The translations under genes and the position numbers were made by a program. A DNA stretch of 64,000 nt from assembly GCA_025454795.1 (NCBI GenBank), contig JALONT010000003.1, positions 1-64,000 of the forward strand, in the 5' to 3' direction. Below the pieces are notes generated by a model. The model was given only the letters and a program-made list of their open reading frames with translations. It made no database searches and had not been told where the DNA came from. Positions within the stretch are counted from its first letter, which is position 1. Each line of letters starts with the position of its first letter. The DNA comes from Bacteroidales bacterium (GTDB lineage: Bacteria; Bacteroidota; Bacteroidia; Bacteroidales; VadinHA17). This document shows positions 27,205 to 42,851 of this stretch, piece after piece.

Positions 27205-27364
27205 ATCCGCCGGCTGGCGGATTCGGTATGACATGGTTACTTTTTGTGGATTGGGGAGGGAAGCAGTGGCGTTTCGAACTGGAGTTGGAATAGTCAAGGA
27301 AGAATTATACGAAACGCCACTGCTTCCCTCCCCTCTTAGAAATAAAGTACCCTGTCATTCCGAA
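27205..27364. repeat. nested palindromic element in the 514-bp gap
   Basis: The gap 26927-27440 has no gene. It holds the palindrome ATCCGCC-ggct-GGCGGAT (27205-27222). Next come outer arms TTCGGTATGACA (27222-27233) and TGTCATTCCGAA (27353-27364), which match at 11 of 12 positions. Inside them lies a perfect 24-bp inverted repeat (27253-27276 with 27310-27333) around a 33-nt loop. The layered arms look like a non-coding mobile or REP-like element rather than a terminator. Confidence 0.75.
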
Positions 27365-27398
27365 TGAAGTTTTAATTTGTCATATCGTCATGAGTGCA

Positions 27399-27440: not shown

Positions 27441-30400
27441 TTAATTCCCCGAAACAATCAGCTTTCTGAATCCGGGATTGATACCTCCGCATGTAATCCT
27501 TACCAGGTAAATACCTTCCCTGAGCCTGATATTTTCAATAGTGAATACTGACTCTCCAGAAGCAACTTTATATGTTGATAAAACCACTCCCTGTAAATCG
27601 TATATCCTGATATCGGCACCAGATGCAAGATTGTTATTAAATTCTATTGTCAACTTTTCAACCGCAGGATTCGGATACATGCTGAAGCAGGTGGCTGTTT
27701 CCTTTGAGGTATCTTCAGCTCCGTCCTTAACTTCATCCGGCGGCACTAAATTATTATTAGCTGATTTCAAAGTAGTTAATGCTTCCGAATTGGCCTGATA
27801 GACCTGTTTTGTCTGGCTGTTCTGGATAAAAGCTATAACCTCAATATCTGAAGATTGCTTAATTTTCTCGATTATCCAGGTCTGTTCCGGAATAGAATAG
27901 GTCTCTCCCTTAGTCCAGTTATTGACAAGTTCTATTCCCCCGGCATCGGGAATAAATTTCCTGAATACGTTATAAAAGTCCTTTTCTCCGGAAGCACCCG
28001 TATGATCGCTGTTTTTCTTCTCAGTTACAACCAAATAGAGCATAAGGTTATCTGAATTGAATTCATCAACAGCAGTCAGGGTACAATTAATCTTCAGAAC
28101 TTCGCCGGCAATTTTTGGCAAAACTGAAATATTAAAACGGGTATCCATCAAACTTCTTCTTGAAAGATCATTGCTGTCGAGAGGTTCTGTTATATTATCC
28201 GAAAGAGTTGCATAATCAGCCTGGCTGTACCCTCCATCAATTAATGAATAGGGCACTCTTGAAAGACCATATGAAAAGATCCTTGCACTTGCATCACCCG
28301 GATTATATGTAAAGAAAGGATCATCGCCAGGGAAATTGGTATGATATTGAATATTAATGACATCTTTCTCTCTGCCATTAATTATTTCATTAACAGTCTT
28401 TGTGGCTTTACTCCCCCGTTTGGAAGCCGTATTGGTAAAGTGTTCCAGCAATACTTTTCTGCTTCTCTCGCCAATCCACACATCATCAAAAGCGATACCT
28501 TCATTCTCGGGGGTGGAACCATCTGATCCATAGGTAATTCTGAACTTGATATTCTTCTTTCCCCTGAGAGAATCAAGCTCATGCCGTGTATCTACCCATG
28601 TCTTGTCAGGTTCTCCAATTTTTGTCCAGCCTGTCTTTTGCCATCCGGGTTTGCCATTTATCTCGGTTGAATTATACCAGCTGATCCCGTCATCCAGGGT
28701 TCCCACTAAATTCCAGGTGTTATTATAATCTGTTTTGTATTGCAATGCGGCCCCATTCCATTTTTTGTCAAATCTCTTGAATGTTTTAAGAGCGATCATC
28801 GGGCGTTGAATATTGGTAAAGTCAAAACATTGAGAAACTACAGATGAATGCTCATTGCTCTGTTTAAGAGTATCCCAGCTGGTAAACCAGGCCGCTGAAC
28901 CCGAGGCTGCTTTATTTATCATCAATTTGTCAGGAGTTCCGAATTGCCAGATGTTTGTAGTGTCTGAATTATCTATTCCCCACCCGCCTTTTCCTGCTTC
29001 AAAATTTTCAAAATAAAAATCGTCCCTTGTTAATTTTTTAGTGGGGTGCAGATAGATATTCTTTAATACTGTGTCAGCGCAGTTCGAATATGCTGTTTCT
29101 ATGATATATTTTACATTAACAAAACCTGTATCCGGCATAGGATATTCAGGATTAAGGATTGGTGTTATCAGACTTCCATTATCGAAGTTCCATGTCCGGG
29201 AGATTACATTTAAATCCTTTGTAGCATCATACAGTTTTAATATCTCCCCGGGAAAATAACAATCATTGGTCCAGTAGAAGTCAGCTTTTGGCCTTATCCC
29301 GATATCAAAGACTGAATCTGCTTTAGATGTACAGCCGCTTACAGTTGTTGCCCTGAGTGATACCGAATGAATACCTCCTGATTTATAAAGGAAACCCGGT
29401 TCTTTCCTGCTATCAGGTTTGGCTCCAAGCTCCGAGAATCTCCAATACCATGATTGCACCGGATCATAGGATATTGTTGTATCCATATTAGTTGTATTCA
29501 TAAAATAAGTGCTGTCTGTACCCAGTTTTACAATACAGACATCCTCAGGCATGAATGAGACCTGCGGAGATTTAACTATTGTGAAATGAACTGTTGTGTC
29601 AGTTGAGCAACCTGTACTTTTATTTGTGTATTTATATGTTACTGATGTATCTCCAAGTACTTTGGAAGGATCAAGATAATTTTCGAGAACAGGACCCGTA
29701 AAGACTCCTCCCGGCCTGGATGTGTTCAGCTCAATCAGAGAAACGTTATTGCATATCCTATCACCCGGGAACAGATTATAGATTTCAACCTTGCCAAGAG
29801 AGTCAATATTCACAGATTTTGAAAACTGGTAATCAACATTATTAAGTTTATAGGAAAATATTAATGTGTCTTTTCCAGCTCCGGCCGCAGGGACGTTGTA
29901 TTCTACTTCTGTTGAGCCTGTTGTATGAATTACGGAATTTTTGGTGTTAACAAAACTGTTAACAGTTATACTGTCTGGCAATCCCGTAACTGTAACAAAA
30001 AATGTTGTGTCCCTGTAACATATTAAAGATGGAATGCCTGTAAAGGTTCCCTGCGCGTCCTGAATTATTGTCTTTTTATTAAGATCATTTTCGCAACCAT
30101 TGGCATCTTTGATATAGTAATTTATTGTATGTTCTCCCAGTCCCGCAATATTGGGATATAGTTTGCTCCCCGATACTCCATCACCTGAAAAGATTCCGGG
30201 TGACTGGACAGGAACAAGAACTGCCGCTCCACCATTTATGTTATAAAAAGGATTAAGTGAAAATGAGGGATCCGGTAATGGGTTAATTAATACACTTCTT
30301 ACAACCTGAGCAGAAGTTCCGCAGCCGGTAGCTTTTACCTGAATGTCGACATTGCCATAAAAACCATTTGCCCAGGTCATAACACCAGCAGAGTTTATTG

Positions 30401-32222
30401 ATCCGGACGATCCATTGCTTAACGACCAGATAAAACTTGTGCTGTTAACAGCCGTTGTTGCATATGTCGTAGTTGTTGAGGAATTGGTAAGCTGGCAAGT
30501 GGGATCACTCCCTGCTGAAATTGTTATAGTTGTTGGAGTTCCTACTATCGGTGTTACTGTCACCGTTGCCGTTCCTGATATATTATTTGAGCATGTTCCC
30601 CCGGGTTGATAAGCTACGCTCACCAAAATATAAATAAATGCTCCGTCAGTAGTCGTAGGAGCTTGTACAATTGCATCTTGTCCGGCACCAACGTTTATGG
30701 CAGTCTGGTTTGCTCCATTTATGTTATAAGTAATTGTAACAGCAAATGCCTGGGGATTATGAAAAGTAATATGAGGAGGAGCGGCACCATGACATACAGT
30801 GGTTGTACCGGAAATGGTTGCTGTTGGTGTTGGGTATATAGTCACCGATTTTGTCTGTGGACCACTAAATCCACAATTATTTTGTGCCTGAACAGTTATA
30901 TTAAGAGGAGAAGCAGCTGCAGCAGAGAAATCAACAATGATACTGGTTGTTCCCTGTCCTGATTTAATAGTTGCCCCTGCTGGAACTGCCCATACATAAT
31001 TTGTTGAATTCGTAACTGCATCTATTGAATAACTCACACCTGACTGGCCCTGACAAACAGGGGAGCTTCCTGTGATAGTACCTGGTATGGCAGGGGCTGA
31101 AGGATAGACTGTAACCACTCTTGTAGCAGTTGTTGTTCCACACCCGGTTGCAGTTGCGGTAATAGTTGCCACTCCGGTAAACTGATCTCTCCAGCTCATT
31201 ACTCCTGTATTTGCATCAATTAGTCCTGCTTTACCTGGACTGGTTCCGCTGGGATCAACTGAATAAACAATTGAAGTACTATATAAAGCTGTTGCTGTAT
31301 AGGTTTCATTTTCTGGATTTTTGCAAAGGGTTGTTGCTCCTGCTGTAAAGACCGGATCCTCAGTTAATGGATTAACCGTTACTGTTGTAGATATGGTACC
31401 GGATGTGCCGCAACCGTTTGCTCTTACTCTGACGGTTGCTTCTCCTGTAAAAGAAGCATCCCATGTTACTGTTCCTGTTGTGCCGGAACCTGAAATACTA
31501 TTGCCTGTTCCTGTTATCGTCCATGTATAACTGGTTGCGCTGGTCGCTGTTGTTGTATAATTTGTTGTGCCCGATCCCTGACATATCGATGTGCTGCCAG
31601 ATGGAGATGAAGGGGTACCTACTGTTGGAGTTACAGTAACTGTTGTGGATACTGATGACGATGTACCACAACCGTTTGCTATTACGCTAACTGTTGCTTC
31701 TCCTGTAAAAGAAGCATCCCATGTTACTGTTCCTGTTGTGCCGGAACCTGAAATACTATTACCTGTTCCGGTGACCGTCCATGTATAACTGGTTGCGCTG
31801 GTCGCTGATGTTGTATAATCTGTTGTGCCCGATCCCTGACATACAAATGTGCTGCCAGACGGGGCGGAAGGGGTTCCTGCGGCCGGAGTAACAATTAAGA
31901 TTCCTGTTACAGAACAATTGTCACCAGCATCAGGACCAGATAAATCTACAGTATAATTAAAAGACCCTGCTTCAGACGGTATTCCGCTGATAGTTAAGGA
32001 AGTACCAGAAACTAAGGTGGCAGTCACTCCAGAAGGCAAACCATGAGGCTCTGCTGATGTTATTGAGGTAGCGTCTGTGGTCCATGTTATTGATGTTATG
32101 TCTACATTAATACATACTGTCTGATCATTTGAACCTGATGTCAGAGTTGTTGAACACTGCCCTGCCACCTTCGCAGAAAGCAGTGACAGAGTAAATATTA
32201 ATATAAGTACGTTTGTCTTCAT
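27441..32222 (-). CDS. T9SS-exported repeat protein with Omp28-like domain
   Basis: The track start at 32240 is a TTG; the ATG at 32222 opens a signal peptide (MKTNVLILIFTLSLLSAKVAGQ) and gives 1593 residues. Residues about 25-720 are Ig/PKD-like repeats, including two nearly identical 86-residue units. More PKD-like domains follow, then a MAM/jelly-roll-like region near 1076-1240. An Omp28-like domain starts near 1255 (VLLEHFTNTASKRGSK). A type A sorting tail begins about 1512 (FSMYPNPAVEKLTIEF) and ends in KLIVSG. It should cross the outer membrane by T9SS and stay at the surface. It is the last gene of the six-gene unit, 47 bases after the lipoprotein gene. The Omp28 part lacks the usual CxxC. 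Adhesin or sensor roles are guesses. Confidence 0.85.
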   Translation of the reverse strand: MKTNVLILIFTLSLLSAKVAGQCSTTLTSGSNDQTVCINVDITSITWTTDATSITSAEPHGLPSGVTATLVSGTSLTISGIPSEAGSFNYTVDLSGPDAGDNCSVTGILIVTPAAGTPSAPSGSTFVCQGSGTTDYTTSATSATSYTWTVTGTGNSISGSGTTGTVTWDASFTGEATVSVIANGCGTSSSVSTTVTVTPTVGTPSSPSGSTSICQGSGTTNYTTTATSATSYTWTITGTGNSISGSGTTGTVTWDASFTGEATVRVRANGCGTSGTISTTVTVNPLTEDPVFTAGATTLCKNPENETYTATALYSTSIVYSVDPSGTSPGKAGLIDANTGVMSWRDQFTGVATITATATGCGTTTATRVVTVYPSAPAIPGTITGSSPVCQGQSGVSYSIDAVTNSTNYVWAVPAGATIKSGQGTTSIIVDFSAAAASPLNITVQAQNNCGFSGPQTKSVTIYPTPTATISGTTTVCHGAAPPHITFHNPQAFAVTITYNINGANQTAINVGAGQDAIVQAPTTTDGAFIYILVSVAYQPGGTCSNNISGTATVTVTPIVGTPTTITISAGSDPTCQLTNSSTTTTYATTAVNSTSFIWSLSNGSSGSINSAGVMTWANGFYGNVDIQVKATGCGTSAQVVRSVLINPLPDPSFSLNPFYNINGGAAVLVPVQSPGIFSGDGVSGSKLYPNIAGLGEHTINYYIKDANGCENDLNKKTIIQDAQGTFTGIPSLICYRDTTFFVTVTGLPDSITVNSFVNTKNSVIHTTGSTEVEYNVPAAGAGKDTLIFSYKLNNVDYQFSKSVNIDSLGKVEIYNLFPGDRICNNVSLIELNTSRPGGVFTGPVLENYLDPSKVLGDTSVTYKYTNKSTGCSTDTTVHFTIVKSPQVSFMPEDVCIVKLGTDSTYFMNTTNMDTTISYDPVQSWYWRFSELGAKPDSRKEPGFLYKSGGIHSVSLRATTVSGCTSKADSVFDIGIRPKADFYWTNDCYFPGEILKLYDATKDLNVISRTWNFDNGSLITPILNPEYPMPDTGFVNVKYIIETAYSNCADTVLKNIYLHPTKKLTRDDFYFENFEAGKGGWGIDNSDTTNIWQFGTPDKLMINKAASGSAAWFTSWDTLKQSNEHSSVVSQCFDFTNIQRPMIALKTFKRFDKKWNGAALQYKTDYNNTWNLVGTLDDGISWYNSTEINGKPGWQKTGWTKIGEPDKTWVDTRHELDSLRGKKNIKFRITYGSDGSTPENEGIAFDDVWIGERSRKVLLEHFTNTASKRGSKATKTVNEIINGREKDVINIQYHTNFPGDDPFFTYNPGDASARIFSYGLSRVPYSLIDGGYSQADYATLSDNITEPLDSNDLSRRSLMDTRFNISVLPKIAGEVLKINCTLTAVDEFNSDNLMLYLVVTEKKNSDHTGASGEKDFYNVFRKFIPDAGGIELVNNWTKGETYSIPEQTWIIEKIKQSSDIEVIAFIQNSQTKQVYQANSEALTTLKSANNNLVPPDEVKDGAEDTSKETATCFSMYPNPAVEKLTIEFNNNLASGADIRIYDLQGVVLSTYKVASGESVFTIENIRLREGIYLVRITCGGINPGFRKLIVSGN
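31435..31862. repeat. near-identical 258-bp tandem repeat inside the surface-protein gene
   Basis: Blocks starting at 31435 and 31693 are nearly identical over more than 150 bases, an offset of 258 bp or 86 codons. They encode successive Ig/PKD-like units. DNA-level identity suggests recent duplication or ongoing copy-number change. Confidence 0.8.
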
Positions 32223-32269
32223 CTTCAAAGTTTTTTCCAATATCTGCTAACTTCAAGTATGTTCAGGTA

Positions 32270-33499
32270 TTAAAACCTGATTTTAAAAAGACTGATCATT
32301 GTGTTGTTCTCAAAACTGTTTTTACCAACAGCTACAATTTCATCTGTCTCATCCGATATTACATCGTATGCAACCTGTATTCCGGTGGCACTGGTTATCA
32401 TTTCTTTACCCGAAACCTGCTTCCCTTCAGCATCTGTAACGAAAATAAGCATCTTTGCCGAAGTACCTGTTCCTGCCTGTCCAGCCAGAACAAATAAATC
32501 TGTACTGTACCTGCTTATTGCTCTCACAGCAAATGAGGATGCAGTTGAATAAGCTGAACTTACCTTGAATTTATATGTATAAATCGGGGAACTAAATATG
32601 TCTTCAGGAATTCTGGTAAGGTAAACCCGTTGATCAGATTCTTCATTTCCAACAATTCCTGCTATGAGATATCCATCATCAAGCACCTCTAAATCAGACG
32701 CATATTCGTAATCCGTTGTTCCCAGTATCTTGATCATCGTCGGCTCTCCATAGAGATTGGTCTTCAGAATAAATATATTAGTGAAATCCTGATATGGCCA
32801 TGAATTGTCAGTAGTTCCTGTAATTACATAACCTCCGTTTATATCATTCTTGATAGCAACTGCCTGATCATTCCCGGGCCAGCCATTTGCTATCGCACCC
32901 AGCGGCTCCAGATTATTATCAATCCTCAGCAGATAAATATCACTCTTCCCCGAAGCATTACCTATAGAATCAGCAATTCCTTCGCGGGCCTGATCGGTTG
33001 AACCCAGAATCATAAATCCTTCAGCTGTCTGAAGAATATCAATGCCATACTGATTGCCTGGTTCAGCATAGATCCTTTCTGAGGAACTCAACCCGTCTGC
33101 CGAGACTTTCACAATATAAATATCCTTTTGATTTGCAATAGCAGTATCCAATACATATCCTGTTGAAATAACCGATCCATCCTGCAATGCCAGTACTTTT
33201 GTTCCGACCGCAGCGTTATTACCAAAACTTCGTTTCCAGATGCGGTTCCCATTTTTGTCAGTTTTAATAACTGCCATCCTTTTCACCGAACTATCTGTTA
33301 TGATGTAATTCGCCTTATTCCTGGTTACTTCAGTAAACTGCCCTCCGATGTAATACCCGTTTTCAGTCATCGAGATACTATAGCCTATATCCTCAAGTGC
33401 ATCCCCATACAGCTTAAGTGTCGGAATGTTTTCAGTTGAATTCTTCTCACATGAGGTAAGAAATAACATTACTGCAATAAATATGTAAATTCTTCTCAT
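32270..33499 (-). CDS. surface lipoprotein with propeller-like repeats
   Basis: The 409-residue protein has a lipobox at cysteine 17 (LFLTSCEKN). The body has repeated strands such as AVIKTDKNGNRIWKRSFG, GSVISTGYV, GFMILGSTDQ, GYVITGTTDN and GYLIAGIVGN. This is the pattern of beta-propeller proteins that report values along a chain, although no named family is certain. It is the fifth gene of the six-gene unit, 9 bases after the barrel gene. It may sit at the cell surface and bind the large T9SS-exported partner; this is inferred from context only. Confidence 0.7.
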   Translation of the reverse strand: MRRIYIFIAVMLFLTSCEKNSTENIPTLKLYGDALEDIGYSISMTENGYYIGGQFTEVTRNKANYIITDSSVKRMAVIKTDKNGNRIWKRSFGNNAAVGTKVLALQDGSVISTGYVLDTAIANQKDIYIVKVSADGLSSSERIYAEPGNQYGIDILQTAEGFMILGSTDQAREGIADSIGNASGKSDIYLLRIDNNLEPLGAIANGWPGNDQAVAIKNDINGGYVITGTTDNSWPYQDFTNIFILKTNLYGEPTMIKILGTTDYEYASDLEVLDDGYLIAGIVGNEESDQRVYLTRIPEDIFSSPIYTYKFKVSSAYSTASSFAVRAISRYSTDLFVLAGQAGTGTSAKMLIFVTDAEGKQVSGKEMITSATGIQVAYDVISDETDEIVAVGKNSFENNTMISLFKIRF

Positions 33500-33508
33500 A
33501 TCTTCCGG

Positions 33509-34576
33509 TTACTTTTTTGAGGGTTTGTAAAATATCTGAGTGTAGCCGATAGTAAAGTTTATTGCATTCAGGTTAAATGCATCATCAGCATAATAGTAGT
33601 AGAATGCCAGTTCCTGCTCTTCCGGTGAGGTCCCTGCGTGAATTACCTGGTTATAGAATCCAAAACCTGATCGCAATTCAGAAAAGATATAACCGCCGGG
33701 AGTTTTGAACTTTATACCTGCTCCCGCCTGCGCAAACAAGTCGAGAGAAATCCTTGATGCTTCCCTGTTAATATCCGATCCTGTATGAGAAGTGCCATTA
33801 AGATCTGACGGTTTAAAATCGGCTGTGGCTATTGTTCCGAGCGATAATGCCGGTCCTGCTCCAAGCCTCGCATAAGGTGTAAACTTTCCAAAATTCCTGA
33901 AATTAAAGGTTGCACTCAACGGTATTTCAAGTCTGCTCTGATTTTCGATATATGAAGTAGTTCCAATCCCTAAGAAGTCCCTTTTATTTGTGAATGACAG
34001 TTGTGAATACCCAACTTCGATATTGGCTTCAATATTATTCCTTATCTCAAATTTAGCTTCTATTGAGCCATAAAAGTTCAGGAGACCTGAACTGTATTTA
34101 TTTGAGCTCTTTTCACTTGCAACGGACGCGGGGTCACTGTCTGTTAAAGTGAGGAAAGGGTAATTAGTTCCAAGATGGACAGAGATCTTAACCAGAGGCT
34201 CAACTTTAAAATTATTGAAAAGGAAAACAAAGCTTGAATGGTCAGTCGGACTAAGCTGATACTCAGGATTACTTCTGAGGAAGGCCAGCATGGCAGAATC
34301 GGCCTGTTCCAGCTTATCCTCAAAAAGATACGACTGAATAAGCAGCTTATAAGCAGAAAGTTGTTCCTCCCTGTTGAACCCTGATTTCATGCATTCGCGA
34401 AGCATGGAAGACACCTGTTCAACCTGTCCTTTGTCGAAGAGTAACTGTGACGCTTTCAGATTCTCTGCACAGGTACTTTTCTCCTGCGCTAAAACAATAA
34501 GCGGAAATGAGAGGATGAAAGCAGCCATCAGAAACTTTAAAACCATTAAATTTATATATCCGGATTTCATTTCCAT
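33509..34576 (-). CDS. PorT-like outer-membrane barrel protein
   Basis: The 355-residue protein has a signal peptide ending near LAQ (about residue 31). A short helical, TPR-like part (about 35-115; CAENLKASQLLFDKGQVEQV) is followed by a beta-barrel of the PorT/outer-membrane-beta-barrel type (about 130-355). That part includes ARLGAGPALSLG and AGAGIKFKTPGGYIFSELR. It would place the cluster at the outer membrane and could connect periplasmic and surface parts. It is separated from the nSTAND gene by 8 bases. The N-terminal helical part ahead of the barrel is unusual. Confidence 0.72.
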   Translation of the reverse strand: MEMKSGYINLMVLKFLMAAFILSFPLIVLAQEKSTCAENLKASQLLFDKGQVEQVSSMLRECMKSGFNREEQLSAYKLLIQSYLFEDKLEQADSAMLAFLRSNPEYQLSPTDHSSFVFLFNNFKVEPLVKISVHLGTNYPFLTLTDSDPASVASEKSSNKYSSGLLNFYGSIEAKFEIRNNIEANIEVGYSQLSFTNKRDFLGIGTTSYIENQSRLEIPLSATFNFRNFGKFTPYARLGAGPALSLGTIATADFKPSDLNGTSHTGSDINREASRISLDLFAQAGAGIKFKTPGGYIFSELRSGFGFYNQVIHAGTSPEEQELAFYYYYADDAFNLNAINFTIGYTQIFYKPSKK

Positions 34577-34584
34577 GATCCCTT

Positions 34585-37500
34585 CTATCTTACTAAATTA
34601 ACTTTAATATTATAACCCTGATCTATGCATGTCTTTTCAAGTGGGATATCCCTTCCCACATAGGTATTCCATTCGTCCTGAGTCATATTCCTCGTAACAA
34701 GTGTACATATATTGTTCACAAGGTTGTCAACATGGGCAGGACGGCTCACCAGGTTCCGGGTACCTTCATATGTCCCGGAGACGATTAATTGTCCATCGGG
34801 ACTGAACTGCATCACAAGTACGAAACCCTCATTATCGGAAAGGGTTATGGGGGGCTCGGTAAGATCAGTTATATCATTAATATTGAATATCTTAAGAGTC
34901 TTATCATTACTTGCGGTTGCCATTTGCCTCAGGACAGGATTAAACTGAATGTCGTTCACCTGTGCTGTATGTGCTTTGACTTCTGAAATCTTTCTGCGAG
35001 TAATGACGTCCCATAATTCAACATTCCCGTTTATATCGCCAATGGCAAGGATATTTTCTTCGGGTTTGAACCTTATCACCTTTATATTTTTACCTGTAGT
35101 TTCTATCCTGAAAACGGCAGAGCTGTTTTCTGGCTCCCAGAGAATTACATTCCCTGTATCACCCACTTTATTTATCCCTGCCAGGTATTTTCCGTTCGAC
35201 GATATATCAATAGATGTGATCTTCATTGAACCTGTTGTCATATCCTTACTGGTTCTTGTAGTAAGATCCCATTGGAGTACTTTTCCATCCAGTGATGCCG
35301 AATAGAGTGATTTACCATCGAAGGAGAATATTAGTGATTTGATATTGCCTTTATGACCAATAAGTTCATATTGCATTGTGTTCCCTTTCAGCGGTATCAT
35401 GCGTATTGAGGAATTAGCACTACCGCATGCCAGCCAGGAAGCATCCGGACTTACAGCGAGCACTTCAATAATTTCTGCTCCTGAATAGATAACCTGATAT
35501 GTCTGATCCTGACCTTCTGTCGACCACCTAAGTACCTGTCCGTCATCGCCGGAAGTATAGAATTCCTTCTTTCCGGGTACAAATGCAATACTTTTAATCT
35601 GACCACTATGTCCCTTGAAAACCTTATAGTCTGCATTTCCGTACTGGCGGGCAACATTATAAAGACCAGTATATATATCAGCGTCATTTTCAGCACCTTT
35701 ATTATTCCTATTGAAAAGATATGCCTGATATGCAAGCAGGGTTTGAAGATCTTTTTGCCCCTGGACCTGAAGTGATTTTACCGACATTGATTTCCCTATA
35801 GCAAGCATTCTGAGACGCAAGGCGTTGATTTTCTGTTCTGTGGCGATGGCTGCATTCTGGTCAGCCCTGGTACTTGCTCTTTTTGCAGAATCGGATTGAA
35901 TAAGGGCAATCTGTTCCTGTCGCTTTGCCTCCTCTGCGTTTATTTCAGCAAGTGTCTGTTGTCTCAAAGCATTTTCTCTCTGCCTCAATGCTTCAGCTTC
36001 ATTTTGTTTCGCTATTGATGCATTAAGGTCTGCCCGGACACTTGCCCGCTGGGCTGAGTCAGACTGCACTATTGCTATCTGCTCCTGCCTTTTTGCTTCA
36101 GCAGCATTTCTTTCGGCCAGTACAGTCTGCCTGTCGGCTGCAATTTTCTGAACAAAAGCAAAAAGCATGAAGCCTATTGATATGATTGCTGCTGTACCAA
36201 GTATAATAGTTACTATTTTGGCTCTTCGGATCTGTCGTTTCTGCAGACGGATCTTGCCCTCCTCCTCATCGAGAAAAGCACGTTCACTTGTCCTCAGATA
36301 CACCATGGCACGTTCAAAGGCAGGGTCATAACGCTGAGCCCACGTAAGCGTTGGCTTATGCTGATCGCGCCAGTTTATTGCAAGTTGAAGGTCAGGGGGT
36401 CTCCAGAGACTTGTTTTCCCTTGCTGGTACATAGCAGATGCTTCAGAAAGACGAAGGTACATTTGTACCGCGGTAGCCTCATCATCCACCCACTCCCTAA
36501 GTCGATCCCACAATCGCATCAGACTTTCATGGGACAAATCAATGATGGAATCTTCGTTCAGAGTAATATCCTGCCTGGGTGTTATAAAAGATTTCGAGGG
36601 GACCCTGAATTTTTCAACAACATTAGAAAGCTCTTCGCTCGTACACTGAACTACTGATTTGATTGTTGAAAAAGATGAAGGATGTCGGATTCCTTTGTTA
36701 TCAGTGCCTTTCTCAGTAATAGATTTGAACATTTTCTCACAGATCTCCTTGCCGCCCAGATCAAGCTCCTCATAAGCTTCATTGGCATGTCTCGACATTG
36801 CATCGCTCATGGTCCCAACCGCATCATAATCTGTAAAACTTAAAGGACGATCAGGCTCATCAAGCTCCTGCCAGTAGGTCCATGTCCTCATGAGAGCATG
36901 CTGCAGGACTGGCAGTTGATCGGTCCTTTCACCTATATCATCAAGAATTGTATCAACAAGTTTTGTTTCAATTGACGCTCCCGCATAATTCACAGGACCT
37001 TCAATAGCCTGTCTGTAGTTTTCCCTGTCCATATGAGGGACAAGATAGTTACTGTTATTTATTAATTGCGTAAATCCTTGATAATGTGCACATTCCCCTA
37101 TAAAGTCAGAACGCATGGTAATGATCGCAAGGACTCCTGAATCAGGCTGGCTGACTGCTTTAACAATTTTTTCAACAAACTCTGCAGCCTGTCTCCCGTT
37201 TGTTCCATCCTGGCTTAAAGCGCTGTATCTGAACAGCTCCTCGAACTGGTCAATGACCAGCAGAACTTTTCCATTGCCTTTTATTAAATGTTTCTTAAGG
37301 GCAGAAGTTATCCCGTCGGAATTCAGATGTATGTCTAAGAGAAGATTATCCATCCCGACTTTTTCCAGACCCGATTCAGCCATATAGTCGATTATGGATT
37401 TACCCAGGTTGCCCAGAGGATCATTTCCCGGTCTGAAAGTGATTATCCTCCATAGTGAAGAATCATCGTGTCCCAGGTCTCTAATTTCCGGAAGTACGCC

Positions 37501-37689
37501 GCAGTAAATAAGCGATGATTTTCCGCTTCCGGAAGCTCCTATAACTGTAATGAACCTGTTCCTGAGAAGTTTATCTAAAACTTCCTTGCTCTCCTTTTCA
37601 CGTCCGAAGAACAGATCGCTTTCTTCCGGTGCGAACGGTCTGAGCCCGGGAAAGGGATTGAAATTCCGGGTCTCTTTGTTTGATGCCAT
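34585..37689 (-). CDS. membrane-anchored nSTAND NTPase with WD40 propeller
   Basis: The 1034-residue protein opens with FPGLRPFAPEESDLFFGREKE, the usual start of nSTAND1 proteins. Walker A GASGSGKSS is at residues 51-59 and Walker B LLVIDQFEE at about 143-151. A helical part to about 480 is followed by one membrane helix near 490-511. An alanine/glutamine-rich coiled coil with repeated EAKRQEQIAIVQSDSA units comes next, then a seven-bladed-type WD40 region from about 690. STAND proteins are switch ATPases that assemble when a ligand binds the propeller. If the N-terminus is cytoplasmic, the propeller lies in the periplasm. The gene is fourth in the six-gene unit. Confidence 0.88.
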   Translation of the reverse strand: MASNKETRNFNPFPGLRPFAPEESDLFFGREKESKEVLDKLLRNRFITVIGASGSGKSSLIYCGVLPEIRDLGHDDSSLWRIITFRPGNDPLGNLGKSIIDYMAESGLEKVGMDNLLLDIHLNSDGITSALKKHLIKGNGKVLLVIDQFEELFRYSALSQDGTNGRQAAEFVEKIVKAVSQPDSGVLAIITMRSDFIGECAHYQGFTQLINNSNYLVPHMDRENYRQAIEGPVNYAGASIETKLVDTILDDIGERTDQLPVLQHALMRTWTYWQELDEPDRPLSFTDYDAVGTMSDAMSRHANEAYEELDLGGKEICEKMFKSITEKGTDNKGIRHPSSFSTIKSVVQCTSEELSNVVEKFRVPSKSFITPRQDITLNEDSIIDLSHESLMRLWDRLREWVDDEATAVQMYLRLSEASAMYQQGKTSLWRPPDLQLAINWRDQHKPTLTWAQRYDPAFERAMVYLRTSERAFLDEEEGKIRLQKRQIRRAKIVTIILGTAAIISIGFMLFAFVQKIAADRQTVLAERNAAEAKRQEQIAIVQSDSAQRASVRADLNASIAKQNEAEALRQRENALRQQTLAEINAEEAKRQEQIALIQSDSAKRASTRADQNAAIATEQKINALRLRMLAIGKSMSVKSLQVQGQKDLQTLLAYQAYLFNRNNKGAENDADIYTGLYNVARQYGNADYKVFKGHSGQIKSIAFVPGKKEFYTSGDDGQVLRWSTEGQDQTYQVIYSGAEIIEVLAVSPDASWLACGSANSSIRMIPLKGNTMQYELIGHKGNIKSLIFSFDGKSLYSASLDGKVLQWDLTTRTSKDMTTGSMKITSIDISSNGKYLAGINKVGDTGNVILWEPENSSAVFRIETTGKNIKVIRFKPEENILAIGDINGNVELWDVITRRKISEVKAHTAQVNDIQFNPVLRQMATASNDKTLKIFNINDITDLTEPPITLSDNEGFVLVMQFSPDGQLIVSGTYEGTRNLVSRPAHVDNLVNNICTLVTRNMTQDEWNTYVGRDIPLEKTCIDQGYNIKVNLVR

Positions 37690-37710
37690 AGTTTAAAATA
37701 TATTGCTTTA

Positions 37711-39675
37711 CTAAATTTTAATACCTATTACAAGGATGTCATCAACCTGGTCATTGTTTCCTTTCCATTCCAAATGTCTGGTCTTCAGAGACTCCCTCTG
37801 AACTTCCACAGGCTGATCGTGAATCTCCAGCAGCAAATCTTCAAATCTTTTGAACATGAATTTCTTGTTCTCAGGTCCGCCAAACTGGTCAGCATAACCG
37901 TCTGAAAACAGGTAGAGGGTGTCTCCCCGGATAAGTTCAATTTCATTGTTGACAAACAACTGGGATTTGCTTCCTTCAAAAGCCCCGATCGGGAATTTGT
38001 CGCCTTTATATCTTATGAGCTCATTATTCCTTATAATGAAGAGAGGATTATTGGCGCCTGCAAATTCAACCTTCCCCTCTTCAAGATTGAAGACGCACAG
38101 TGCCATATCCATCCCGTCCTTGATTGAACCGTTACTGGTATTTTCGTTCAGCGTAGTGATAACCCCTTTATTGAGTTCATCGAGGATTACGCTTGCCGAC
38201 CTTGCTTTTTTAACTGTTACAGCCTGATTGAGCTGGTTAAAACCGACTATGGACATGAATGCTCCTGGGACCCCGTGACCTGTACAGTCAACAGCAGCCA
38301 CCATGAATAATTCTTCGGTTTCATGTACCCAGTAAAAGTCACCGCTGACTATATCTTTAGGAAGATACAGTATGAAGTAATTCTCCAGGTGATTACTAAT
38401 AAGATTGAATGACGGAAGTATGGCATTCTGTATCCGGCGCGCATAATATATGCTATCCATTATATGTTTCTTCTGCTCTTCAATCTCCTCTTTCTGTTTT
38501 TCAATTTTTAAGGTTCTCTCCTTAACCTTTTCCTCAAGCTCATAATAATAGCTTTCCAGTTGTGCTATCATCATATTGAATTTCTCCGAAAGCTTTGTGA
38601 TCTCATTATTGCCGGTAACATTCGCTCTCTCTCTCAGGTTCCCGTTTGTTATCCTGTCGACATTCTCAACCAGTTTTTTTATGGGGAGGGTAATTAAACG
38701 TGTCTTCCGGTAAATAAGATATGCCACAATGAGTATCGTAATGCCAAAGATCAGAATAAACCTTAAAGCCTCTTTCCTGAAAAGAGCTTTCTGAGCAGTA
38801 ACATCTGAGATTATCCTTACCACAGAACCCTCATAAAGATTGGAAGATGATCTTTCCATGTACATATACTGATACTGGTACCATAAGTCTCCGCTTTGCT
38901 CAATAACGGTTGTATCCCTGTTTTTAAAAGCTGCCAGCAGCAGTTCTTTGTGACCAGGAACTTCCTTCACATTCTTATTCATGGTGAAGGGTTCATCTGC
39001 CATAAGAAACAATTCAACATCAATAATACCTCTGGATTCATTCTTAATGTCAACTTTTGTCTGCTCTATTATATCAATAATCTCATCTGCTCTCTTTGAA
39101 TACACTCCCAGCTCAACTAAATATTTTCTGTCTTTCGTTGGCTGGTAGGTATATTTTTTAGGCCTTTTGGTTTTGGCCTCAATTGCAAACAGCTCGGTCA
39201 CAAAATCTTTTGTCCTGAAAACGTCAAGAAGGTAATTTTTAAACTTTTCACCCAGGCTATATAGGTTTACGCCAAAATCCTGCTGAAAAGTAGTATTAAC
39301 AACAACCCCGTCTCTCCGTATGATGTATATATCCTCGTTATCTTCATCCATTCCTATTTTATTTGCAATTTCCCTGAGGTCGAGTTTATCGATGTTGTCT
39401 GTGTTTAAAAAGTATTTGTCGACAAGAAGGTTACTAAGTGATTTCATCCTGCTTTCCATCTCCTCATCAATCAGCTTAAAGGTAATATCCTGGAATTTAA
39501 GGATCTTTTTGACTTCGTTCGACAGAAGTTGGTTCTTTTCATATGTACCTGTGGTAAGTATTGAACGGGTCCTCTGGAAATTAATCCCTGAAAAAACAAG
39601 AAGAGCAAGCAATGTTGGTATAACAATATTGAGAATTAGTTGCCTGAAAATAGTTGTCTCTCTGCTTTTTGCCAT
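37711..39675 (-). CDS. membrane sensor with HAMP and SpoIIE/PP2C phosphatase
   Basis: The 654-residue protein has a membrane helix at about 12-30, a large extracytoplasmic sensor region (possibly Cache-like) to about 300, and a second helix at 302-320. A HAMP domain (LPIKKLVENVDRITNGNLRERA), a coiled coil (KVKERTLKIEKQKEEIEEQK) and a SpoIIE-type phosphatase domain follow. That domain has VSGDFYWVHE near 443, AAVDCTGHGVPGAFMS near 465 and LFSDGYADQFGG near 590, so the metal-binding aspartates are kept. It should dephosphorylate a serine/threonine-phosphorylated partner in response to an envelope signal. No anti-sigma kinase or STAS gene lies nearby, so its target may be within the cluster. Confidence 0.9.
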   Translation of the reverse strand: MAKSRETTIFRQLILNIVIPTLLALLVFSGINFQRTRSILTTGTYEKNQLLSNEVKKILKFQDITFKLIDEEMESRMKSLSNLLVDKYFLNTDNIDKLDLREIANKIGMDEDNEDIYIIRRDGVVVNTTFQQDFGVNLYSLGEKFKNYLLDVFRTKDFVTELFAIEAKTKRPKKYTYQPTKDRKYLVELGVYSKRADEIIDIIEQTKVDIKNESRGIIDVELFLMADEPFTMNKNVKEVPGHKELLLAAFKNRDTTVIEQSGDLWYQYQYMYMERSSSNLYEGSVVRIISDVTAQKALFRKEALRFILIFGITILIVAYLIYRKTRLITLPIKKLVENVDRITNGNLRERANVTGNNEITKLSEKFNMMIAQLESYYYELEEKVKERTLKIEKQKEEIEEQKKHIMDSIYYARRIQNAILPSFNLISNHLENYFILYLPKDIVSGDFYWVHETEELFMVAAVDCTGHGVPGAFMSIVGFNQLNQAVTVKKARSASVILDELNKGVITTLNENTSNGSIKDGMDMALCVFNLEEGKVEFAGANNPLFIIRNNELIRYKGDKFPIGAFEGSKSQLFVNNEIELIRGDTLYLFSDGYADQFGGPENKKFMFKRFEDLLLEIHDQPVEVQRESLKTRHLEWKGNNDQVDDILVIGIKI

Positions 39676-39686
39676 TACTGATTATT

Positions 39687-42600
39687 TTATTTCACGTTAG
39701 TTTCAATAAATTTTAAAATAACACCAGATTTCTCAGGGAACAGGTAATTATATTCTTCTACAAATCTCAGCGGCAGCAAGTAACAGTAACCTCTGACATT
39801 CTTTCCTGGTCTCTCTCCGTCTTTTGTCTGAGTTTCGTAAATTATTTCCACATTCTCAGGATCTCCTCTCCATATAATATATCCTCCTTCATCAGTTAGA
39901 AGTTCCGGATTGATTTCTTTTGAATATTCAAGTTTCCCTGCCAGCCAGAGCAGATCTTCCTCAATCATACCTTCAATGCAGAATGAGAGGAACCTGACTT
40001 TCTCATACAATAATTCATTTTCGTTTGTTTCATCGGATACTATTTTATCAAGTTGTCTTCTTGACTGCACAGGAATTCTGACAGAAGCAGATTTATAAAG
40101 TTCTTTGCCGGACCTGGCAATCAGTTTTACCGATTCTTCCTTCAGGATTGTTTCCGGGCTGAAGAGAAGAGCAACAAGGGACTCTTTAAGCGGCTCTCTT
40201 TCAATTTCAGGCATATTTCTGATTGCACAGGCCCTGATCCATATTCCCAGGAGATTATAATCGCGGTTGATGATATCCTCCATAAGCTTCTGTTTCTCAT
40301 GAATTTCACCCGGAAAAAACTGGTAAAGATTCTTTACTTTCTCTTCATCAGAGATGATATCAAGGAGAGGAATCAATTTTGGTTTTATGGAATCATCGAT
40401 TACCATATCTATCATCTCAAGAGCGTAGTTAACACTCTCAACTGTGCCACTGCTGAGATTCTCCCTTATCCTCTGTATTGATCCTGAATCATAAGTAATT
40501 GAAAGAATATTAAAGAGAAAAGTGTTCCACCGTTCAATCTCCTTGTGCAATGCTTCAAGGACCAGGGTTTCATTATTCCGTTCAAGACAGATCTTTGTTG
40601 AAAGATTCCAGACCATTATCCCGATTATGTCAGTAATAAGCTGATGGAGCCGGTCTTTCTCCTCCTCTGGTGCTTTGTACCCGCAATCAATAAGCCATCC
40701 TGCTGTTGCTTCCCTGATCTGCCGTGAGTTGGACCAAAGTCTTGAAAAAAGGAAACTCTGGTTCTCTTTCCGGCAATTATCGCTCATGAGTTGAAGAATG
40801 GTTTTACTTATGGCCGGGTTACCGGCTGAAATGAGATAATACCTCGACAGAGCCTCATCTGCATTTTTTCCTAAGCCTCTCAGAACACTGGCTGCCTGTA
40901 ATTCAAGTCCGGGAATATTCAGGCATTCACATACTTCAGAGATCATGTCAGTAATCCTGAATTTGCCTATCATAAAGATCGCAAGCTTCTTCGACTCCGG
41001 GGAATTATCTCTAAGAAGTCGTAGTATCTGGGTTGTCTGGGGCTGTCTGGTTCCGGCAAGTATCTTCTGTGCATTTAATATCTTATCTTCTTTTTGCTGC
41101 CCTGCTGTCAGCAAAATTTCCAGACTTTCAGCAATAACCGCTGATCTCTGCCGTGATTCTGCATCAGCTCCGGAATGGGAAGTTATGAACCTTAGTGCCG
41201 GTAATAAACTGATATCCCTATTCTTATCAGCATGCTCCAGTATCTTACTGACCAGGAGGCTGTTACTATCTTTTGTCATACTGGTGTGGTTGCCCGATAT
41301 CAGGTTGAAGTATTCATTGTTAAATGCCAGTGCAGCAGAAAACCTGCTTTTTAATACTTTATCCCCCGTTTGCAGGTTAATATCGTGTTTTTCCTGACCA
41401 CCGGATTCCAGGGCTTTCCTTATAGATTTCCTGTATCCTGTATATAGCTTTACAGCAACAAAAATCCAGAGGAGAGTTATTATGAAGAGTACCAGCGAAA
41501 AATGTATAAGTTTAATGAAGCTCAGGATTCCAAGTCCTGCCAGGAGCAGTCCGGAAGCAAGAGCCGCCATCTCATTTACTGTACCGTCCATCGAAGACTG
41601 AACTTCATATCGGTTTTTCTCGTCAATTGTCTGGTAAATTACTTTAAGCGACGGTGATTCAATTGAGTCTTTAATCGACTTGGAAAAGAGACGGCTCAGG
41701 GCAAGCATCATGAAAAAGAGCATAAATCCACTTGTGGCCGGAGTGTAGCCCATAATCATCCCAATAGTTACTGCAATAACTGTAAAGGCTGCAACCAGGA
41801 CAGGCGACAGGGCCAGGCAGGTACGCAGCCCGTAATTTCTTATCAGGTATGAGAAAACAAGCAGCTTTATCAGCAGTGTAAATATCATCATGCTACCGGT
41901 GAAGATCCCAAGGAAGCGGGCCATATCTTCCTCGGCAGGATATTGTTCACGTGTAACAGCCATAAATGAATACTGGACAAAGAATGCTGTCATCACGGAG
42001 AGGGCAATGAAAAGACCCATGATCCTGATATAGGAATCTTCGAGGAACAGTTCCCCCAATGATTTTTTCTTCCCTATGGTTCTGGTTTCCTGGGTACTTT
42101 TTACCGGTGCTGAAAGAAACCTTTTCCCGATAATAATCTGGATAAAACTCCCGGACAGAACAGCTGCTGAGCTAATAAGCAGAATATTATGTGACTCAAA
42201 ATTCAGAGAAAGTAAAACCGGTATGGCATAACAACTGATGATAATACCAATAATTAATCCGGCATCGACAAGACCGAATAAACGCTTTCCCTGTCGGAGA
42301 GTAAACAGACGGCTCACTGTTCCCCAGAAACCCAGCATTGCCAGAATATTCAGAGGACCCAGCATAATAAAGACCAGGAAGATGACACCTCTTGAAGGAG
42401 CCAGAAGCAGAAGGAACCAGAGAATCAGTGTAAGAGAAGCGACAAAGAACAGGTTCCCTGTCGCAAAATTTCTGAAGATCATCCTTGTCTGCATACGGGT
42501 ATAAACAGAGGTAAGGATTATTCCTGCCAGACCTGACAGGACATATCCTCTTGCCATCATTTTTTCGTCAAAAATTGAAAGGAATAGTGAATGTGCACTG

Positions 42601-42713
42601 ATATCAAAGGCTCCGAAATAGATACCCAGGAAAACAGATTGAGACAAGAGTACTGATACCATAGACTCCTCTCCGGATTCAATCCCAAGGAGGGTAAGAA
42701 ATCTGTCTTTCAT
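39687..42713 (-). CDS. nucleotide-translocase-like membrane protein with HEAT-like tail
   Basis: The track ORF begins at a TTG (42725); the ATG at 42713 gives 1008 residues. The first 420 residues hold about twelve membrane helices (FGAFDISAHSLFLSIFDEK, RLFGLVDAGLIIGIIISC, SIKDSIESPSLKVIYQTIDEKNRYEVQ). The pattern resembles the Npt/ATP-ADP translocase group of MFS-like carriers. Residues about 430-1008 are soluble helical repeats (ESLEILLTAGQQKED, AASVLRGLGKNADEAL) of the HEAT type. It is the first gene of the six-gene unit. Nucleotide transport is a family-based guess; a sensor or scaffold made from a transporter is equally possible. Confidence 0.72.
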   Translation of the reverse strand: MKDRFLTLLGIESGEESMVSVLLSQSVFLGIYFGAFDISAHSLFLSIFDEKMMARGYVLSGLAGIILTSVYTRMQTRMIFRNFATGNLFFVASLTLILWFLLLLAPSRGVIFLVFIMLGPLNILAMLGFWGTVSRLFTLRQGKRLFGLVDAGLIIGIIISCYAIPVLLSLNFESHNILLISSAAVLSGSFIQIIIGKRFLSAPVKSTQETRTIGKKKSLGELFLEDSYIRIMGLFIALSVMTAFFVQYSFMAVTREQYPAEEDMARFLGIFTGSMMIFTLLIKLLVFSYLIRNYGLRTCLALSPVLVAAFTVIAVTIGMIMGYTPATSGFMLFFMMLALSRLFSKSIKDSIESPSLKVIYQTIDEKNRYEVQSSMDGTVNEMAALASGLLLAGLGILSFIKLIHFSLVLFIITLLWIFVAVKLYTGYRKSIRKALESGGQEKHDINLQTGDKVLKSRFSAALAFNNEYFNLISGNHTSMTKDSNSLLVSKILEHADKNRDISLLPALRFITSHSGADAESRQRSAVIAESLEILLTAGQQKEDKILNAQKILAGTRQPQTTQILRLLRDNSPESKKLAIFMIGKFRITDMISEVCECLNIPGLELQAASVLRGLGKNADEALSRYYLISAGNPAISKTILQLMSDNCRKENQSFLFSRLWSNSRQIREATAGWLIDCGYKAPEEEKDRLHQLITDIIGIMVWNLSTKICLERNNETLVLEALHKEIERWNTFLFNILSITYDSGSIQRIRENLSSGTVESVNYALEMIDMVIDDSIKPKLIPLLDIISDEEKVKNLYQFFPGEIHEKQKLMEDIINRDYNLLGIWIRACAIRNMPEIEREPLKESLVALLFSPETILKEESVKLIARSGKELYKSASVRIPVQSRRQLDKIVSDETNENELLYEKVRFLSFCIEGMIEEDLLWLAGKLEYSKEINPELLTDEGGYIIWRGDPENVEIIYETQTKDGERPGKNVRGYCYLLPLRFVEEYNYLFPEKSGVILKFIETNVK

Positions 42714-42722
42714 AAGTTTTCC

Positions 42723-42754
42723 CAAAGGCTAATAAAGGCACACTAAATTAACAA
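42723..42754 (-). promoter_or_regulatory. possible promoter of the six-gene unit
   Basis: On the minus strand TTG (42752-42754), 20 bases, then TAGCCTTTG (42723-42731) loosely fits the Bacteroidota pattern. It lies 10 bases before the ATG at 42713. The -7 element is one base longer than ideal, so the call is weak. Confidence 0.3.
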
Positions 42755-42785
42755 TTTAATCCTATTTAATATAATATCAAAATCA

Positions 42786-42808
42786 TTTTTTGACGAACCG
42801 TCAAAAAA
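42786..42808. repeat. perfect palindrome upstream of the six-gene unit
   Basis: TTTTTTGACG and CGTCAAAAAA pair over 10 bases around a three-base loop. It lies between the aroK stop (42852) and the first gene of the six-gene unit. It may terminate the parE-parC-aroK transcript or serve as an operator of the downstream unit; the sequence alone does not decide. Confidence 0.6.
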
Positions 42809-42851
42809 CAGTGATTTTCGTAAAGCGTAAATGTAAAAGTGGATATACAGG

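Follow-up and report, generated by a model that had tools for sequence, protein, structure and literature searches.

We examined six open reading frames that follow one another on the minus strand at positions 27441–42713 of the window, the whole 64,000-nucleotide stretch of DNA that was analysed. An ORF check recovered all six at the expected coordinates, and the intergenic gaps of 11, 21, 8, 9 and 29–47 bp agree with the short spacing of 8–47 bp described in the first-pass annotation. The range of the last gap depends on the start of the surface gene (TTG at 32240 or ATG at 32222); the translocase was taken to start at the ATG at 42713, with the mechanical ORF reaching a TTG at 42725. Genes for topoisomerase IV subunit A and shikimate kinase lie upstream, and gpmI lies downstream. 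The genes and associated features, in 5′ to 3′ order, are as follows.

42784..42810, minus strand: hairpin between the shikimate kinase gene and the unit
39687..42713, minus strand: translocase-HEAT protein, with an ATP/ADP-carrier-like membrane domain (about residues 20–440), HEAT repeats and a degenerate cyclic-nucleotide-binding-like C terminus
37711..39675, minus strand: SiaA-like sensor phosphatase, with two transmembrane helices, a putative Cache-like periplasmic domain, HAMP and PP2C/SpoIIE domains
37690..37710, minus strand: phosphatase/ATPase junction, the site of a TIR-like gene in relatives that is absent in the window
34585..37689, minus strand: nSTAND1 ATPase, with a predicted cytoplasmic NTPase, a single transmembrane helix (residues 495–513), a coiled coil and a predicted periplasmic WD40 propeller
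33509..34576, minus strand: barrel protein, with a periplasmic TPR-like helical domain and an 8-stranded OmpA-type outer-membrane barrel
32270..33499, minus strand: lipoprotein, with lipobox LTSC and a beta-propeller
27441..32222, minus strand: surface protein, with a signal peptide, PKD-like repeats, an Omp28-like domain and a type A sorting tail of the type IX secretion system (T9SS)
27221..27365: 56-nt inverted repeat 3′ of the last gene, between the unit and gpmI

The hairpin is a possible terminator of the upstream operon, and the inverted repeat possibly marks the end of the unit. A sigma-70 promoter scan, which is uninformative for Bacteroidota, returned 48 matches compared with 40.3 ± 7.1 in shuffles, with no excess. 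Pfam matches were obtained for four of the proteins (Por_Secre_tail and PKD_6; OMP_b-brl_2; nSTAND1 and WD40; HAMP and SpoIIE). The window copies of the translocase and the lipoprotein had no Pfam match above cut-off and were identified by other means: the former by a PDB match to ATP/ADP carriers and by HEAT repeats in relatives, the latter by a profile match to a beta-propeller.

A relative of the translocase-HEAT protein is present in 51 of 198 sampled genomes of the same order. The order translocase, phosphatase, nSTAND ATPase, barrel, lipoprotein and surface protein, usually with a TIR-like gene between phosphatase and ATPase, was found in eight families besides that of the window, at least nine in all, bearing out the earlier expectation that the genes would co-occur in other genomes. 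The conserved order was read in ten of the 20-kb stretches around the best relatives, some of which do not contain the whole surface gene. Because this order recurs across families, the arrangement is more than chance, and the six genes are a genuine, widely conserved envelope-spanning unit. The phosphatase had a match at 1e-80 in 38 of 98 genomes of the family; no full-length orthologue was found in the 395 other genomes of a phylum sample (strict threshold of E ≤ 1e-110, three candidates scored per genome), a sample of 396 with the window's own that is sparse for this order and speaks only to other orders. Identity to relatives in the genus falls from the inside to the outside of the cell: 67–75% for the ATPase, 67–77% for the phosphatase, 55–66% for the translocase, 50–60% for the barrel, 40–55% for the lipoprotein and roughly 42–49% for the alignable C-terminal parts of the surface protein. 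In some other families, surface genes occur without an adjacent phosphatase (four loci), so the link between these two is not absolute, and one further locus (L072) carries translocase and phosphatase with no ATPase nearby.

The genus of the window provides a natural deletion series. Wherever both flanks were visible, the cluster is flanked by shikimate kinase and gpmI, and a full-length phosphatase orthologue was found within it in 11 of 43 sampled genomes. At the same site, two genomes carry the translocase-HEAT protein and the ATPase, six a HEAT-only protein and the ATPase, two the ATPase alone and three none of the unit. The phosphatase, barrel, lipoprotein and surface genes are either all present or all absent at this site. 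Their loss requires two separate deletions, because the phosphatase gene precedes the ATPase gene and the other three follow it. Mapped onto the ATPase tree, the pattern represents four independent joint losses of these genes, each with the ATPase retained. A sign test on co-loss found four of five usable pairs consistent, none opposite and one uninformative (p = 0.125, too few pairs). ATPase tip branches are mostly longer in reduced lineages than in full ones, which fits a changed constraint. In the reduced genomes, barrel orthologues of comparable strength were not found elsewhere; one of the two genomes that keep the translocase-HEAT protein and the ATPase has a diverged barrel paralogue in a different nSTAND pair. 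The first-pass proposal of an envelope-spanning unit is supported, and its surface proteins, NTPase and phosphatase are inherited together.

The ATPase carries an nSTAND1 domain (PF20703, E = 1e-92) with Walker A and B motifs, as well as a WD40 match; in the window genome, one nSTAND1 protein scores above cut-off. Walker A is intact in all 42 orthologues, and each of these has one transmembrane helix near residue 495 with a positive-inside charge distribution (net charge +4 to +9 before the helix and −2 to +4 after it). By the positive-inside rule at this single conserved helix, the NTPase is placed in the cytoplasm and the propeller in the periplasm, where it should face the helical domain of the barrel. 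The initial assignment of the protein to the cytoplasm and inner membrane is corrected for its WD40 part, which should be periplasmic. Predicted counter-invader systems are the setting in which the nSTAND1 class was defined (PMC8195603); the window protein shares with them an NTPase with intact Walker motifs and a C-terminal propeller; a TIR partner occurs in its relatives. It differs from them in being transmembrane, with a predicted periplasmic propeller, in lacking an effector-associated domain and in its linkage to outer-membrane and T9SS proteins.

Relatives outside the lineage of the window usually have a seventh gene between phosphatase and ATPase, one that could not be seen at first pass. 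This gene encodes a protein of 425–504 amino acids that has a DUF4062-like central part and one or two segments resembling TIR, most of these matches falling below threshold. It is absent from the window, its genus and four further genera (g151, g154, g157 and g158), and is kept by two genera of the same family (g161 and g153). Its presence and absence require two changes on the phosphatase tree; the TIR-like gene was lost in the lineage of the window, and lost twice. Relocation within the genome was rejected after a search of the window's own genome, run without a positive control, did not find the gene.

These features raise the possibility of a conflict system, directed against phage or other bacteria, in which the nSTAND1–HEAT core would be an NLR-like sensor, the TIR-like protein a former effector and the surface parts detectors of attackers. 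The origin of the nSTAND1 class, the TIR-like protein that adjoins nSTAND in many families, the patchy distribution within the genus and the faster divergence of the outer parts would all suit such a role. Several observations argue against it. Only about half of the aligned proteins keep the putative catalytic TIR glutamate, and the gene has been lost twice. Pfam, other profile and PADLOC searches revealed no nuclease, other effector or effector-associated domain in the window's unit, and membership in a PADLOC defence system was rejected, as no system matched; the one weak hit was to HEAT-ARM_XIII over the WD40 region. The fixed site and vertical pattern are also not those of a defence island. 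We regard a conflict system as unlikely.

The membrane domain of the translocase is homologous to the plant and Chlamydia-type ATP/ADP carriers of the NTT/TLC family (E = 1.9e-12; PDB entries 9j3j and 9j3n, E = 1e-12 to 1e-10). It differs from them in its added HEAT and degenerate cyclic-nucleotide-binding-like regions; the family profile matches HEAT/alphaRep and PKG/HCN cyclic-nucleotide domains, HEAT_2 was found in 12 of 15 relatives, and the degenerate end also occurs in relatives. The protein is predicted to reside in the inner membrane with its HEAT part facing the cytoplasm. At six loci, the whole transporter domain has been lost, and the remaining HEAT-only protein still adjoins the nSTAND gene at the same chromosomal site. 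The charged carrier residues E245, E385 (which we take to be important in these carriers) and K527 are replaced by P124, Q251 and A388, respectively, as matched with a numbering offset of 84 deduced from the agreement of three charged residues; carrier K155 falls outside the alignment. Within the family, P124 is invariant and A388 nearly so. In NTT1, mutant data give E245 and K527 a role in exchange and ATP binding (PMC3306366). The label 'translocase' needs correcting, as charged residues required for nucleotide exchange have been lost. A system for nucleotide import or exchange, with this protein as the main actor, would explain the match to ATP/ADP carriers; given the substituted residues, and six reduced clusters in which the HEAT part persists but the translocase is gone, we consider it highly improbable, and rejected nucleotide transport. 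With the three residues needed for ATP/ADP exchange lost, a role as sensor or scaffold is probable.

The barrel matches PF13568, and its AlphaFold2 model (pLDDT 80) was matched to OmpA by Foldseek (E = 3e-8). The lipoprotein family profile matches the CylK propeller (E = 7e-27). The surface protein has about 1,600 residues; its Omp28-like domain is of thioredoxin fold and contains the segment LEHFTN, with no CxxC. Every intact orthologue that we found has the same layout, with the Omp28-like segment and a type A tail. The tail is that of T9SS cargo, and the genome encodes the T9SS core (SprA, on another contig) together with 35 sorting tails, which identifies the protein as cargo. The unit differs from T9SS machinery in that Pfam and other profile searches found no core T9SS part among the six genes.

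Such a gene set might instead serve to assemble or anchor the large surface adhesin, with the ATPase powering or controlling display of the T9SS cargo through the barrel and lipoprotein, and the phosphatase regulating only expression or the state of the biofilm. A T9SS cargo of one architecture does close every intact copy, and Pseudomonas SiaA controls aggregation (PMC7647112). Against this, HEAT protein and ATPase persist without any surface gene in several members of the genus, and we rejected the barrel as an export channel because it has only 8 strands, and 8-stranded barrels are not export channels. To our knowledge, T9SS cargos elsewhere need no dedicated ATPase. We hold such an assembly or anchoring machine to be as unlikely as a conflict system.

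The phosphatase (PF07228 and PF00672) is closest, by both fold and sequence, to SiaA of Pseudomonas aeruginosa (6k4e; 33% identity, target TM-score 0.88; full-length model of moderate confidence, pLDDT 71). It has the two transmembrane helices, HAMP domain and PP2C fold of SiaA, and it scores 253.6 bits against the SiaA model, below the curated equivalog cut-off of 700. That its periplasmic part is Cache-like is suggested by the secondary structure of this region and by weak matches of the region to models of chemoreceptors. SiaA dephosphorylates SiaC at T68, and SiaB opposes it (PMC7647112). Three SiaA residues placed by modelling at the contact that holds phospho-SiaC (F612, R618 and R652) correspond to K604, R610 and V644, with one of the three kept. 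The unit has in common with SiaABCD the two-transmembrane HAMP–PP2C phosphatase and, in the same genome, SiaC and SiaB homologues; it differs in lacking SiaB, SiaC and SiaD and in linking the phosphatase to STAND, HEAT and surface genes instead.

We surveyed the 3.3-Mb window genome for the missing partners. It encodes 13 SpoIIE, 10 SiaC and 3 DUF6272 (SiaB-type) domains, distributed over contigs C1, C19, C24, C52, C62, C69 and others, and includes one SiaB–SiaC gene pair on C24; the SiaC homologues keep the phosphorylated Thr/Ser motif (YFNTSS). SiaC genes also lie near the translocase in three relatives and are most similar to the SiaC of the C24 pair. The first-pass suggestion that the phosphatase may act on a member of its own unit was not supported and was rejected, as the unit contains no gene for a SiaC or STAS protein and the ten SiaC genes lie elsewhere. 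SiaC is a plausible substrate, and the phosphatase probably acts on one of these ten SiaC-like proteins, although two of the three modelled contacts with SiaC are changed.

Related genes recur in other arrangements. A sister cluster at five loci, with domains tested in two (L048 and L081), comprises nSTAND-WD40, a TPR/TonB-dependent receptor, a formyltransferase-like protein, a translocase-HEAT protein and a Y_Y_Y sensor histidine kinase; in L080 and L081, an RsbW-like kinase, a STAS protein and a cyclase-like protein adjoin it. At L057, a translocase-HEAT gene lies directly 5′ of a large Y_Y_Y sensor gene whose product has a SpoIIE-like C terminus, and similar pairs occur at three more loci. 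The genus also has a further diverged nSTAND and barrel pair (three loci), 5′ of which is a protein of about 348 amino acids without a confident Pfam family. One stretch with the conserved order (L078:6557–9064) has a second, diverged phosphatase-like sensor gene (835 amino acids) between translocase and phosphatase. In additional types of cluster, too, the gene after that for the ATPase encodes an outer-membrane protein whose N-terminal region is TPR-like.

We propose, at a probability of about 0.5, that the unit is a device that signals across the envelope and has a SiaA-type output. The T9SS-secreted surface protein and the propeller lipoprotein would sample the outside, and the helical domain of the barrel would pass their state to the periplasmic propeller of the nSTAND1 ATPase. 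The ATPase and the HEAT/transporter-like inner-membrane protein would then switch or oligomerise together on ATP, and the phosphatase would oppose a SiaB-type kinase by dephosphorylating a member of the SiaC family encoded outside the unit; signalling would run from the surface to the cytoplasm. We suggest these contacts mainly because pairs of nSTAND with a TPR-bearing outer-membrane protein, and of translocase-HEAT with a sensor or output protein, recur. Conserved gene order, co-loss, the topology common to 42 of 42 ATPases, SiaA as the top fold, the SiaC and SiaB genes of the genome, the SiaC genes near the translocase in relatives and the one nSTAND1 protein of the genome are consistent with a signalling device; we count against it the surface genes without phosphatase, the locus without ATPase (L072), the changed SiaC-contact residues and the small number of co-loss pairs. 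Between signalling and conflict, the fixed site, the spread across many families and the lack of an effector in the window or a PADLOC system lean towards signalling, and conflict is favoured by the TIR-like protein in relatives and by the nSTAND1 class. More tentatively, the unit may be a bacterial NLR-like machine spanning the inner membrane, with the barrel and a T9SS-secreted sensor giving it access to the cell surface, partner switching of the SiaA/SiaC type as its output and TIR as an ancestral partner.

For each candidate known system, the unit fails at least one tested feature; the open-licence literature yielded no paper on this gene combination, in line with the first impression that it matches no named system. 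On that literature, the gene system is new and its domains are not: the parts come from known families, and no described system that we found matches. STAND ATPases are mostly regarded as cytoplasmic sensors of invaders; here, the ATPase should span the inner membrane, and its gene is co-inherited with those for an outer-membrane barrel, a surface lipoprotein and a T9SS protein. Little is known of how Bacteroidota relay surface signals to the cytoplasm, a question made testable by a single site that, within one genus, occurs in full, reduced and empty natural versions.
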